Program-made: the position numbers and the translations under genes
The notes under the pieces: generated by a model
The model's input: the letters and a program-made list of their open reading frames with translations, nothing else
What the model was told of the DNA's origin: nothing
Databases searched by the model: none
Origin: Oceaniglobus roseus
GTDB taxonomy: Bacteria > Pseudomonadota > Alphaproteobacteria > Rhodobacterales > Rhodobacteraceae
Direction of reading: 5' to 3'
Assembly: GCF_002869745.1 (NCBI RefSeq)
Contig: NZ_PNOS01000018.1
Location: 1-64,000 of the forward strand
DNA length: 64,000 nucleotides
Shown: positions 5,544 to 63,787 of the stretch, in pieces
Layout: each line of letters begins with the position of its first letter
Position numbering within the stretch: the first letter of the stretch is position 1

Positions 5544-5553
5544 CGCGCGGATT

Positions 5554-5574
5554 GCAAATCCCTGCGGGATTTGC
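5554..5574 (+). repeat. perfect 9-bp hairpin directly before a GCCTCCGGCGGGG box
   Basis: GCAAATCCC at 5554-5562 is the exact reverse complement of 5566-5574, with the loop TGC. It begins 10 bases after the formate dehydrogenase stop and touches the GCCTCCGGCGGGG box. It has no T tract, so it is a poor Rho-independent terminator, but it could protect or process the 3' end of the mRNA. Confidence 0.8.
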
Positions 5575-5575
5575 A

Positions 5576-5608
5576 GCCTCCGGCGGGGATATTTAAGAAG
5601 CAAAGATG
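5576..5608 (+). repeat. dispersed box, copy 1 (GCCTCCGGCGGGG ... AAGAAGCAAAGATG)
   Basis: The box starts GCCTCCGGCGGGG, continues ATATTT and ends AAGAAGCAAAGATG. Similar boxes lie at 17106, 21922 and, split by a hairpin, at 62205-62291. This copy is between a + gene end and the next + gene start. Confidence 0.75.
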
Positions 5609-21921: not shown

Positions 21922-21953
21922 GCCTCCGGCGGGAGTATTTCTGCAAAGAAGAA
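21922..21953 (+). repeat. dispersed box, copy 3
   Basis: GCCTCCGGCGGGAGTATTT is followed by CTGCAAAGAAGAA. It lies 40 bases after the amidohydrolase stop in the convergent gap before dinB. It is related to copies at 5576, 17106 and 62205. Confidence 0.65.
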
Positions 21954-22018
21954 GCCCGAGAACGCGACAGTGCAGGCGTCTTTTCTGTCCAGATCCTCCC
22001 GCTGGAGGCGTTCTCCGT

Positions 22019-59459: not shown

Positions 59460-59942
59460 TCAGGGTGTCAGCGCGCGCTCGAAGTTGATCGAAGTCGGGC
59501 GGTCGAACCCCTCGTGCGCCGTGCGCCCCGTTTCGCTGAAGCCGAGGGCGGTGAAGGTGGCGTGGTTCTCGGTCAGTTCCACCCGGGTCTGGAGACGCAG
59601 ACGCGGCAATCCTTCGGCGCGGGCGATCGCCTCCGCCGCGTCGATCAGCGCGCGGGCGAGGCCGCGGCCCCGCCGGGCCGGATCGACGGCGAGCTTGCCG
59701 AGGTAGAGCGCGTCGGGCTGCCACGTGCAGAACAGGCAGGCATGGGGCGCGGCATCGGGCCCGATCACCAGAACGGTTTCCCGCGCCGCGGTCGCCGCGA
59801 TGTCCTGCGGCGTCAGGCGATGGAGCGAGGAGGGCGGGTCGATCCGCCCCTCCATCCCCGCGAAGCAGCGGTGCAACAGGCGGTGGAGCGCCGCCCAGTC
59901 GGCCGGGTCTGCGGCGCGGCGGATCCCGGGCGCGTCGGTCAT
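59460..59942 (-). CDS. GNAT family N-acetyltransferase
   Basis: This 160-residue GNAT protein has the acetyl-CoA site KLAVDPARRGRGLARALID (motif A, with the R-R-G-R-G pyrophosphate loop) and motif B FTALGFSETGRTAHEG. The substrate is unknown. The ATG at 59942 overlaps the cobN stop by 4 bases, so it is translated with cobN. A second GNAT gene lies on the other side of cobN. Homologous GNATs in cobalamin loci have no established role. Confidence 0.87.
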   Translation of the reverse strand: MTDAPGIRRAADPADWAALHRLLHRCFAGMEGRIDPPSSLHRLTPQDIAATAARETVLVIGPDAAPHACLFCTWQPDALYLGKLAVDPARRGRGLARALIDAAEAIARAEGLPRLRLQTRVELTENHATFTALGFSETGRTAHEGFDRPTSINFERALTP

Positions 59943-62900
59943 GGTGTCCTCAGGCGGTCGAGAAGGGCGCGGGCGGAGTTCGATTTCGGGGTCCAGAGCC
60001 CGCGCTCGGCCGCCTCGTCCAGCCGCTCGGCGATCTCCCGCAGGGCGGGCGGGTTGTTCCCGGCGATGAAGTCGCGGGTCTCGTCGTCTTCCAGGAAGGC
60101 GGCGTGGACCAGGTCGAAGTGGTGGGACTTCACCGCGCCCGTCGTGGCGGCGAAGGCGAACATGTAGTCGACCGTCGCCGCGATCTCGAAGGCGCCCTTG
60201 TAGCCGTGCCGCTTGACCCCCGCGATCCACTTCGGGTTGACGACGCGGGAGCGAACGACCCGGCCGATCTCGTCCTCGAGCGTTCGGATCAGCGGGTGTT
60301 CGGGGCGCGAGTGGTCGTTGTGATAGACCGGCCTCTCGCGGCCCTGGAGCGTGGCGACGGCGGCCGCGGCGCCGCCTTCGAACTGGTAGTAGTCGTCGGA
60401 GTCGAGCAGGTCGTGTTCGCGGTTGTCCTGGTTCTGGACCACCGCCTCGGTCTGGCTCAGGCGCGTCTCCAGCCCCTTGCGGTCGGCGGTGCCTTCCGCG
60501 CCGGCCCCGTAGGCGTAGCTGCCCCAGGCGAGGTAGGCGTCGGCCAGCGCCGCCTTGTCGGCCCAGAGGCGTTCGTCGATCATCGCCTGGAGCCCCGCGC
60601 CGTAGGCCCCGGGCTTCGAGCCGAAGACACGTGCCGTGGTGCCCTCGGTGCGGGCGCGGGCGGCTGCGGGGTTCAGGTCCTTGGGTTCGTCCAGCGCCAT
60701 GACCGCGCGGGCGGCGCTGTCGACGAGGTCGATCAGCTGCGGGAAGGCGTCGCGGAAGAAGCCGGATATTCTCAGGGTGACGTCGACCCGCGGGCGGCCG
60801 AGGGCGGTGGCAGGGATGATCTCGAAACCGGTGACGCGGCGGTTGGCGGCGTCCCAGGTGGGTTTCACGCCCATGAGCGCGAGGCACTGGGCGATGTCGT
60901 CGCCGCCGGTCCTCATGTTCGAGGTGCCCCAGGCGGTCAGCAGCAGGGCGCGCGGCCAGTCGCCCTGGTCCTGGAGGTGGCGTTCGATCAGCAGGTTCGC
61001 CGATTTCCAGCCGAGGCTCCAGGCCGTGGGGGTGGGCACCGCGCGGCTGTCGACGGAGTAGAAGTTGCGCCCGGTCGGCAGCGTGTCGAGCCGCCCGCGG
61101 GTGGGGGCGCCGGAAGGGCCGGGGGCGAGGAAGCGGCCGTCGAGGGCGGTGAGCAGCCCTGCGGATTCGGCGGGACCGCAGGCGGCGACGGCGGGGGCGA
61201 TCTTCGCCGCGATCTCTTCCAGGACGGCATCGGTGGCCGGTCCGACGTGCGGCGCTCGGGGCTCCGCCCCGTCGCCCCGCCCGCCGTCCCGTGTGCCGTC
61301 CCGCAGGAGGGCCCGGGCGGGCGTTTCGAGCCGCTCCACGGTGTCGCCCTGGCTGCGCCAGGGGGTGTCGCCCGTAAGGATATCAGGGCGGGGGCCGGTC
61401 CAGGGCGCGGCCATGTCGCAGGCCAGCGGGTCGAAGCCGAGGCCGAGGTCGGCGGCCATGGCGCGCAGCAGCGAGGCGTCGCCGCCCTTGCCGTCGCCCC
61501 GCGGAATCCGCGCGAGGGCGAGGGTGAGGTCGCGGTGGAGATCGCCCTCCGGGGACTGCCCGAAGACGTGCAGGCCGTCGCGGATCTGTGCCTCCTTCAG
61601 TTCGCAGAGGTAGGCGTCGAGTTTCGCGAGGTCGGTCTCGGCGTCGCCGGAGAAGCCTGCGTCGCGGTCGAGGCCGGTGCTGGCGGTGAGCGACAGGATC
61701 TGGTCCTTCAGCAGTTTGATGCGGCGGGGATCGACGCCTGCGGCCTCGTAGTATTCGTCGACCAGCGCCTCGAGGTCGCGGAGCGGCCCGTAGGTCTCGG
61801 CCCGGGTCAGGGGCGGGGTCAGGTGGTCGACGATCACCGCCTGGGCGCGGCGCTTTCCTTGGGTGCCTTCGCCCGGGTCGTTGACGATGAACGGGTAGAG
61901 GTGGGGCATGGGGCCGAGGACCGCCTCCGGGAAACAGGTTTCGGACAGGGCCAGGGCCTTGCCGGGGAGCCATTCGAGGTTGCCGTGCTTGCCCATGTGG
62001 ACGATCGCGTCGGCGCCCCAGTGGTCGCGCAGCCAGATGTAGCCGGCGAGGTAGTTGTGGGGCGGGACGAGGTCGGGAGAGTGGTAGGTCTCGGTGGGGT
62101 CGATGTTGTAGCCGCGGGCGGGCTGGAGCGCGACCACGGCATTGCCGAAGCGGTGGAGGGCGAGCTTGAAGTGGCCATCGGTGGCGCTTGTGGAGGGTTC
62201 GGGAGCCTCCGGCGGGGAGTTCGAAGGGGTCGAGAAACGATCCGGGGGATCGTTTCCCCTTCGAACGGGCGGAGCCCAAGAAGCAAAGATGGGGAGTGTT
62301 TCGAAGAACGGATCGGCCTCGGGGAGGCCCCAGCGGGATTCGATGGCGTCGCGGATGTCGAGGGGGAGGGTGCGGTACGTCGCGAGGTAGGTGGCGAGAG
62401 GGAGGGTTTCGCCGCCCGCGCGGTCGGCGCGGTCGGTGAGCCAGTTGGTGGGGCCCGCCATGAGGCGCGTCATCAGGGCGGTGCTGTCCTTCGGGGCGTT
62501 TTCGACGGAGTAGCCCGCGTTCTTCAGCAGGTGCAGGACATGGGCGGTGGCGGCGGGGGTGTCGAGGCCGACGCCGTTCGCCATACGGCCGTCGCGGTTG
62601 GGGTAGTTTGCGAGCACGAAGGCGACCTTGCGGTCCTTCGGGGCGGTGTGGCGCAGCTTGGCCCAGTTGGCGGCGAGGCGGGCGGTGAAGGCGATGCGGT
62701 CGCCCTGGGCGCGGTAGGCGGCGACGTTGCACTCGGTCGCCTCGTCGAAATAGGCGGTGTCCTTGAAGCTGACGGCGCGGGCGAGGATGCGGCCGTCGAC
62801 CTCGGGAAGCGCGACATTCATCGCGATGTCGCGGGCGGAGAGGCCGGTGCTGCCCTGCGCCCAGGTCTCTTCCGAGGTGGCGGCGAGGACCACCTGGAAC

Positions 62901-63787
62901 ACCGGCGCCGCGTTGGCCGAGGGGGCGGCGAGGGGGTTGCCTGCCGCCGGGTCGCCCTCGTGGGGGGAGCCGGTGGCGAAGGCGGTGGTGTTCAGGATCA
63001 CGCTGGGCGGCGCCTCGGCGAAGAGGCGGTCGAGGGTGGCGGCGGAGACGGGATCCTTCAGCGAGGCGACGAAGACGGGCAGCGGGTTCAGCCCCTCGCG
63101 CAGCAGCGCCCGGGTCAGCCGGTTGATCGGGTGGAGGCCCGCGCCCTGGAGGAGCGCGCGGTAGAAGACCAGGGGGACGACCGGGGCGCCGTCCTGCCAG
63201 TGGGAGCGGATCTCGGCCAGGGTGGTCTGGCCCGCGCCCGGCCAGTAGGCGCCTGCACGCAGCAGGGGCGCGGCGGCGGGAAGGTCGGCGCGGGTGGCGG
63301 GGGCGTCGAGCATCGCCTTGGCATAGGCGAGGAAGGTCGCGGCGTTCCGCGGGCCGCCTTCGACGAGGTAGGACCAGAGGGCGTCGTAATCCTCGGGCGA
63401 GACGGTGGAGAGGGCGCGCAGGTCGGCGTCGGGCTTGTCGTCACCCGGCAGGGCCGCGAAGGGGACGCCGGCGGCATGGAGGCGGGCGGCGTATTGCTCG
63501 AAGCCGTAGCGCCAGTAGCCCGCGCCGCCGAGGATCCGTGCGACCACCAGCCGGGACTTCGTGGCGCAGGCGTCGAGGTGCAGGTCCACCGACATCGGAT
63601 GCGCGAGGTGGGCGAGGCTGGCGAGGCGCAGGGTGGGGGGCGCCTCCATCGTCGCGCGGGCTTCGGAGAGGGCGGCGAGTTCGGTGTCGGCGGCCGAGAT
63701 CACCACCACGTCGGCCGGCGTCTGGCCGAGGTCGACGGGATCGGACCCGGTGTCGATCTGGCCCGGGAGGGCGGCGAGGAGGTGCAT
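59939..63787 (-). CDS. cobN: cobaltochelatase subunit CobN
   Basis: This 1282-residue protein inserts cobalt into hydrogenobyrinate a,c-diamide with CobS/CobT in the oxygen-requiring pathway. Conserved CobN segments are clear: HMGKHGNLEWLPGKALALSE, PHLYPFIVNDPGEGTQGKRR, APTRGRLDTLPTGRNFYSVD, NQDNREHDLLDSDDYYQFEG and KWIAGVKRHGYKGAFEIA. Two stretches (residues ~500-538 and ~833-846) do not resemble the family as I know it, and their DNA matches dispersed palindromic repeats of this window. They look like in-frame insertions. The frame is intact through both. CobO is downstream. Confidence 0.96.
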   Translation of the reverse strand: MHLLAALPGQIDTGSDPVDLGQTPADVVVISAADTELAALSEARATMEAPPTLRLASLAHLAHPMSVDLHLDACATKSRLVVARILGGAGYWRYGFEQYAARLHAAGVPFAALPGDDKPDADLRALSTVSPEDYDALWSYLVEGGPRNAATFLAYAKAMLDAPATRADLPAAAPLLRAGAYWPGAGQTTLAEIRSHWQDGAPVVPLVFYRALLQGAGLHPINRLTRALLREGLNPLPVFVASLKDPVSAATLDRLFAEAPPSVILNTTAFATGSPHEGDPAAGNPLAAPSANAAPVFQVVLAATSEETWAQGSTGLSARDIAMNVALPEVDGRILARAVSFKDTAYFDEATECNVAAYRAQGDRIAFTARLAANWAKLRHTAPKDRKVAFVLANYPNRDGRMANGVGLDTPAATAHVLHLLKNAGYSVENAPKDSTALMTRLMAGPTNWLTDRADRAGGETLPLATYLATYRTLPLDIRDAIESRWGLPEADPFFETLPIFASWAPPVRRGNDPPDRFSTPSNSPPEAPEPSTSATDGHFKLALHRFGNAVVALQPARGYNIDPTETYHSPDLVPPHNYLAGYIWLRDHWGADAIVHMGKHGNLEWLPGKALALSETCFPEAVLGPMPHLYPFIVNDPGEGTQGKRRAQAVIVDHLTPPLTRAETYGPLRDLEALVDEYYEAAGVDPRRIKLLKDQILSLTASTGLDRDAGFSGDAETDLAKLDAYLCELKEAQIRDGLHVFGQSPEGDLHRDLTLALARIPRGDGKGGDASLLRAMAADLGLGFDPLACDMAAPWTGPRPDILTGDTPWRSQGDTVERLETPARALLRDGTRDGGRGDGAEPRAPHVGPATDAVLEEIAAKIAPAVAACGPAESAGLLTALDGRFLAPGPSGAPTRGRLDTLPTGRNFYSVDSRAVPTPTAWSLGWKSANLLIERHLQDQGDWPRALLLTAWGTSNMRTGGDDIAQCLALMGVKPTWDAANRRVTGFEIIPATALGRPRVDVTLRISGFFRDAFPQLIDLVDSAARAVMALDEPKDLNPAAARARTEGTTARVFGSKPGAYGAGLQAMIDERLWADKAALADAYLAWGSYAYGAGAEGTADRKGLETRLSQTEAVVQNQDNREHDLLDSDDYYQFEGGAAAAVATLQGRERPVYHNDHSRPEHPLIRTLEDEIGRVVRSRVVNPKWIAGVKRHGYKGAFEIAATVDYMFAFAATTGAVKSHHFDLVHAAFLEDDETRDFIAGNNPPALREIAERLDEAAERGLWTPKSNSARALLDRLRTP
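61251..61292 (+). repeat. GC-rich hairpin repeat with 21-base tail, copy 2, inside cobN
   Basis: GGCGCTCG, the hairpin GGGGC-TCC-GCCCC and a 21-base tail (61272-61292) match the copy at 8957-8996. On the coding strand it yields a Gly/Arg/Asp-rich stretch at about residues 833-846 of CobN. The tail is identical in both copies; the hairpin arms differ but remain complementary. Confidence 0.65.
62205..62291 (+). mobile_element. composite palindromic element inside cobN (box copy 4 split by a hairpin)
   Basis: The box half GCCTCCGGCGGGG (62205-62217) and the second half AAGAAGCAAAGATG (62278-62291) are both exact matches to copy 1 at 5576-5608. Between them, in place of ATATTT, lie 60 bases with a stem: 11-bp arms (62219-62229/62256-62266), a 5-base bulge and an inner 9-bp stem (62235-62243/62247-62255). 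It is in frame in cobN (residues ~500-526) in the antisense orientation. No transposase is encoded, so it would be non-autonomous. Confidence 0.6.

Follow-up and report, generated by a model that had tools for sequence, protein, structure and literature searches.

A dispersed Rhodobacteraceae repeat is read in frame within cobN, at a site where related species carry another form of it

Introduction

The cobN gene of Oceaniglobus roseus contains a palindromic stretch of 87 nt whose two ends recur together as a short box between genes. This raises the question of what the stretch is, how it came to stand in the gene of a conserved enzyme, and what it does to the encoded protein. A preliminary description took it for a palindromic insertion tolerated in a protein, like those of Rickettsia (RPE). 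Here the locus was compared with the own genome, with cobN of relatives and with known repeats. The window is the whole stretch of DNA analysed, 64,000 nt of one contig.

Results

Structure of the element in cobN

The cobN gene, coding for the large subunit of cobaltochelatase, lies at 59939-63787 on the reverse strand and encodes an intact protein of 1282 aa, identified by Pfam PF02514 (1203 bits) and by solved CobN homologues. The element at 62205-62291, described here on the forward strand, was composed of the head GCCTCCGGCGGGG (62205-62217), 60 nt, and the tail AAGAAGCAAAGATG (62278-62291). As proposed in the preliminary description, both halves are identical to those of an intergenic compact box at 5576-5608 on the same strand (GCCTCCGGCGGGGATATTTAAGAAGCAAAGATG), which has ATATTT between them, and the 60-nt hairpin between the halves in cobN was confirmed as well. 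This compact box lies 33 nt after a stop codon and belongs to a subfamily with head GATATTT and tail GAAGCAAAGATG; the second own subfamily, with AGTATTT in the head and GCAAAGAAGAAG as tail, is represented between genes by a compact box at 21922-21954 on the forward strand. The tail AAGAAGCAAAGATG, an exact match to that of one of the genome's two box subfamilies, occurs in the window only in the cobN element and in the 5576-5608 box, even with two mismatches allowed, and 0.07 occurrences were expected.

Folding of the 60-nt middle gave a strong hairpin (DNA fold z = -5.1). The hairpin at 62219-62266, supported also by covariation, takes the place of the ATATTT/spacer of the compact box and has the inner stem GAAACGATCC/GGATCGTTTC (62234-62256). 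It is followed by a 3' mini-hairpin, GGGC-GGA-GCCC (62267-62277), whose stem is invariant and whose loop is variable in 12 elements, and the head carries a mini-stem of its own (GCC-TCC-GGC). The 87-mer has no stop codon in any of its six frames, and the cobN reading frame continues uninterrupted across the element, which lies antisense and in frame, so the view that a palindromic repeat is translated within cobN was upheld. An artefact of assembly or sequencing, or a pseudogene, is extremely improbable as an explanation: the genome is a draft, no evidence supported such an origin, the reading frame is intact across 1282 codons, and independent genomes carry boxes at the same cobN site.

The 18 nt left of 62205 matched the left-flank consensus of 60 own-genome boxes with a score of 10.0, which was equalled by 1 of 20,000 random window positions, and the cobN left flanks of two congeners scored 3.4 and -1.2 against the same profile. 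Because this flank fits the own boxes, the repeat-derived stretch spans about 62191-62291 and starts about 14 nt further left than the 87-mer, with the left flank of the repeat unit, GGAGGGTTCGGGA, at 62191-62204 (boundary approximate). As a separate observation, a perfect hairpin, TTGCAAATCCCTGCGGGATTTGCA, at 5552-5575 adjoins the compact box at 5576, and in another genome (G164) GC-rich hairpins of varied sequence stand directly before many boxes. A conserved hairpin just 5' of boxes was rejected as a general feature, being clear in G164 only.

A dispersed repeat family with compact and extended forms

The cobN element is a member of a dispersed Rhodobacteraceae repeat family with compact and extended forms. 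The own genome (87 contigs) contains 70 boxes in which the 19-nt head is exact, and 34 own-genome boxes read GATATTT in the head followed by CAAAGATG. Three more extended copies match positions 1-73 of the element at 95, 89 and 81% identity; the closest, at G000:C6, is 95% identical to the cobN copy over 73 nt.

A covariance model was built for the extended form from 12 sequences with 27 pairs and found it in 14 genera. Its stems covary among the 12 elements (score 0.254, against 0.096 when shuffled), and 34 cells were altered on both sides compared with 13.6 in shuffles, a signal that vanished when the partner was slid along. No Rfam family matched the element in the window at the gathering score, nor five extended-copy loci at E<=1.

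A compact box is made up of three parts, the head [GC]CCTCCGG[CG]GGG(GA, AG or CA)TATTT, a spacer of 3-5 nt and a tail of 9-12 nt. Head bases 1 and 9 in 144 boxes were G..C in 135, C..G in 9 and mixed in none, and this strict pairing supports the head mini-stem. The tail varies between genomes and between subfamilies of one genome. In extended copies the hairpin was seen to stand exactly at the spacer position of the compact box. The central hairpin module with CGGGCGGAGCCC was also met without a box head (L090; L097, G002:C34:235586-235735; G020:C1:258575-259007), and in some relatives this headless module forms tandem arrays, like a separate repeat family.

Boxes lie between genes

Boxes were found in Rhodobacteraceae chromosomes and plasmids, nearly always in unannotated gaps. 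Their placement was determined for 90 boxes from three genomes with gene calls by codon usage trained on the own genome; for the genome of the window species, the census took in 60 of about 70 exact-head copies. None of the 90 lies within a gene, cobN being the exception, and the check proposed in the preliminary description, for other genes carrying the element in frame, found none in these three genomes. By type of gap, 45 boxes were convergent, 41 tandem, 3 divergent and 1 undecided; in the window, convergent gaps make up only 4 of 40. The own genome also has inverted tail-to-tail pairs with spacers of 16-20 bp, most copies being single. In a check for the terminal inverted repeats and target-site duplications of MITEs, inverted pairs were seen, and the flanks that were read were complementary, not direct repeats. 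This placement (intergenic, biased to convergent and tandem gaps, with inverted dimers) is REP-like. One explanation was rejected, that of a 3'-end element or terminator oriented in sense. It had first been raised because 21 of 27 boxes stand after a stop on the same strand, but between tandem genes the boxes are oriented about at random (24 in sense and 17 in antisense in the three genomes), and the excess stems from convergent gaps.

The cobN site in relatives

We aligned CobN of 80 Rhodobacteraceae, taken as the best 80 matches to the window CobN. The insert sits in a loop flanked by the DPFF and FKLSIHRFG segments, and this linker is variable across the 80 proteins. In 17 of 79 relatives the site had, on the antisense strand, a box head with no more than one mismatch; this is a fraction of these best matches and not a family-wide estimate. 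Degraded remnants were seen in others. All 17 boxes are read in one frame and mostly encode I-(S/L/P/C)-P-P-E-(A/G). The Ile codon of the box is ATA in 15 of 15 cases, whereas elsewhere in these genes 2% of Ile codons are ATA (P 2e-26); since this rare codon is kept throughout, the cobN box is conserved as nucleotides rather than as residues. The stem-swapped head CCCTCCGGG seems to be commoner in cobN copies (L009, L011, L031, L079, L087, L157) than in intergenic copies of the same genomes.

These data bear on whether the insert could have arisen because the protein was selected to have a Pro/Ser-rich linker, its likeness to intergenic boxes being a coincidence. A variable linker at this site in many CobN would agree with that, but the idea is scarcely credible in view of the rare ATA in all 15 boxes, the exact match of the 14-nt tail and the flank to own repeats, and the many functional CobN without an insert. 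A chance origin of the nucleotide match, as it requires, is refuted.

Two congeners (G001 and G003), both with readable CobN, carry at this place in cobN a compact box of 33 nt on the same strand and in the same frame, and the site of G003 equals that of Oceaniglobus trochenteri. Because these congeners already hold a compact box, the window species gained only about 54 nt (18 residues) over them. Since relatives carry a compact box there, the change in cobN is a swap of box type at an occupied site and not a fresh insertion. The preliminary estimate of about 38 added residues (500-538) therefore held as to an in-frame insert, but the repeat-derived part is about 500-533 and the gain over congeners is 18. 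On a CobN tree computed with the insert removed, box presence was clustered, with clades of Oceaniglobus, Pseudooceanicola and Loktanella relatives, yet it requires at least 8-9 changes, and the box is absent from 50 of 81. The cobN site appears to be either ancestral or a hot spot, with repeated replacement of what occupies it.

The cobN copy follows the boxes of its own genome

For each of 18 genomes, the tail of the cobN box was matched against boxes from the whole set, with representative rows for box-rich genomes. In 14 of the 18 the cobN tail was closest, or tied closest, to boxes of its own genome, and the summed distance was 13 compared with 55.6 after permutation (p<=5e-5); the other four tails had a better match elsewhere. 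Three congeneric species have three different cobN tails, each that of its own genome, and sister cobN genes differ in subfamily, L055 being of the AG/GGCAAGATGATG type and L053 and L060 of GA/ACAGAGAGG types. These comparisons of sequences indicate that the cobN copy follows the repeat subfamily of its own genome.

Vertical inheritance alone, that is, one ancient insertion into cobN that slowly diverged, would account for the same site, strand and frame across many genera and for the box clades of Oceaniglobus, Pseudooceanicola and Loktanella relatives. It is nevertheless very unlikely, for the tails track the genome and not the cobN lineage, down to the three congeners with three own-genome tails, and neither the head dinucleotide nor the tail is the same in sister species.

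We think it probable, instead, that an extended REP-like repeat stands at a long-occupied, permissive cobN site, antisense and in frame, where occupants are replaced from the own genome. Membership in the family, compact boxes at the same site in relatives, the match to the own subfamily and the exchange of one box type for another at a single site are established by the results above. Several points count against the replacement of occupants: a single gene is affected, 4 of 18 cobN tails are not best matched to their own genome, and no transposase or other mover was identified, the Y1 transposase being absent from the genome.

The spacer also has to be considered. It is hypervariable in sequence and length between a near-invariant head and tail, with 17 spacers in 30 copies (L169-L197, L198-L227; boxes ~1501), a pattern not expected if a 33-nt unit were simply copied and pasted. 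If boxes were functional bipartite sites for a host factor, with one to three co-evolving tail dialects per genome and cobN as a working site, a spacer free in sequence and slightly free in length would be explained better than by replacement. Such a role would also suit the link between tail and head dinucleotide (in 126 of 130 cases the neighbour with the nearest tail has the same dinucleotide, 72 expected), the swap of the G..C and C..G stem without mixed cases, and the ATA codon retained in cobN. We regard it as possible, though unlikely: in cobN the boxes are patchy, with those 8-9 or more changes on the tree and 50 of 81 genes lacking one, the left flank, outside the motif, is also common to own copies, the conservation of the head was partly ascertained by the search patterns, and no host factor is known. 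A combined reading, in which a genome-wide dialect of bipartite sites is read by a host factor or mover and the cobN address is rewritten in place when the dialect changes, we consider doubtful. If it were true, a protein-coding gene would be edited in concert with intergenic DNA.

A second site between gcvH and gcvP

In the gcvH-gcvP spacer, compact boxes with different tails were found in Phaeobacter pDOK1, Parasedimentitalea and Ruegeria 43209, and in Ruegeria AD91A and THAF33 an extended element takes this place. The spacer of Phaeobacter inhibens DSM 17395 has neither box nor extended element. In this spacer, compact and extended forms have been exchanged as they have in cobN. It was also observed that plasmid-borne glycine cleavage operons of Roseobacteraceae (L161, L164, L166, L255, L256) have a compact form, an extended form or none at one intergenic spot.

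The repeat-encoded part of CobN

The genome encodes one full-length CobN; one other match is partial (37%) and presumably a related chelatase subunit. In the solved CobN 9uk9 about 5 residues stand where the insert sits, and the insert residues are not conserved in distant CobN. The preliminary description had expected this lack of conservation and further copies in the genome, and both were found, the latter as the three extended copies and the 70 exact-head boxes. We modelled CobN residues 1-820 with AlphaFold2 from 45 sequences (mean pLDDT 74), and the closest structure to the model was CobN 7c6o. The pLDDT fell below 50 exactly at 501-533, between the strands 495-497 and 538-542. The residues encoded by the repeat, about 500-533 (62191-62291, read on the reverse strand), are thus predicted to form a disordered loop, and the simplest reading of the model is that this loop is tolerated as a passenger without harm.

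Discussion

Under the favoured reading, in which occupants of the cobN site are replaced from the own genome, replacement would come about either through non-allelic recombination or through re-insertion of the genome's own copies. In the window species a compact cobN copy was probably exchanged for an extended copy close to that at G000:C6, leaving a coding sequence 54 nt longer than with the 33-nt box. Such an exchange would keep the reading frame because both lengths, 33 and 87, are divisible by three, and the element could persist thanks to its open frame and to a disordered, harmless loop in the protein. One species shows a recent replacement of the compact by the extended form in cobN, and the cobN site offers a natural readout of the copying or conversion of short repeats, with the reading frame as a filter.

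The preliminary description knew of no equivalent, and this stands for the family itself: a literature search, which missed most subscription journals, found nothing relevant to the box sequence and no paper on such repeats in Rhodobacteraceae, so a repeat family with genome-specific tails is apparently undescribed so far. Translated repeats as such are known, as RPE, REP and RU/ERIC. The RPE of Rickettsia and its Wolbachia counterpart are likewise palindromic, found also between genes, translated in frame in a conserved enzyme and tolerated (PMC2229807), and the cobN element is equally a palindromic repeat translated in frame within a conserved protein gene. However, the RPE-1 type measures 105-146 bp and occurs in about 19 genes, and insertion into many genes, by which RPE is set apart, was not found among the 90 boxes of three genomes. 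The cobN family has one gene, one site, a modular head, hairpin and tail, and an occupant that tracks the current subfamily. The comparison with RPE hence holds for translation in frame but not for multi-gene invasion, and the compact box probably predates the extended form at the site.

Intragenic GTAG/CGTC REPs (Di Nocera 2013) are 20-40 bp long, lie mostly in convergent or tandem gaps near 3' ends, occur singly or as inverted dimers and sometimes encode residues, and different REPs stand at about the same recB site in two Xanthomonas species (PMC3733652). Our boxes resemble them in placement, inverted dimers, a residue-encoding copy and different occupants at one site, and differ in the compact box with a stem of only 3 bp, the genome-specific tails and the extended hairpin form. 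Membership in the RAYT/REP class was rejected: the Y1 (RAYT) transposase PF01797 was absent from the own genome in a search whose controls were positive, and the boxes bear no GTAG/CGTC end, the head reading GCCTCC.. and the tails ending in ..GATG, ..GAAG and others. As far as the consulted part of the 2011 REPIN report goes (PMC3116915), the inverted pairs, whose 16-20-bp spacer in the own genome could allow large hairpins, are REPIN-like, but most boxes are single and a RAYT gene was not found in the genome. The enterobacterial RU/ERIC MITE-like repeats are also small and mobile and are translated in frame as parts of genes; their length and described classes differ, and the abstract mentions no recurrent occupation of the same site (PMC2759123). 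Translated palindromic repeats were thus known already; what is new here is one site in a B12 enzyme, across many genera, whose occupant follows the changing subfamilies of its genome.
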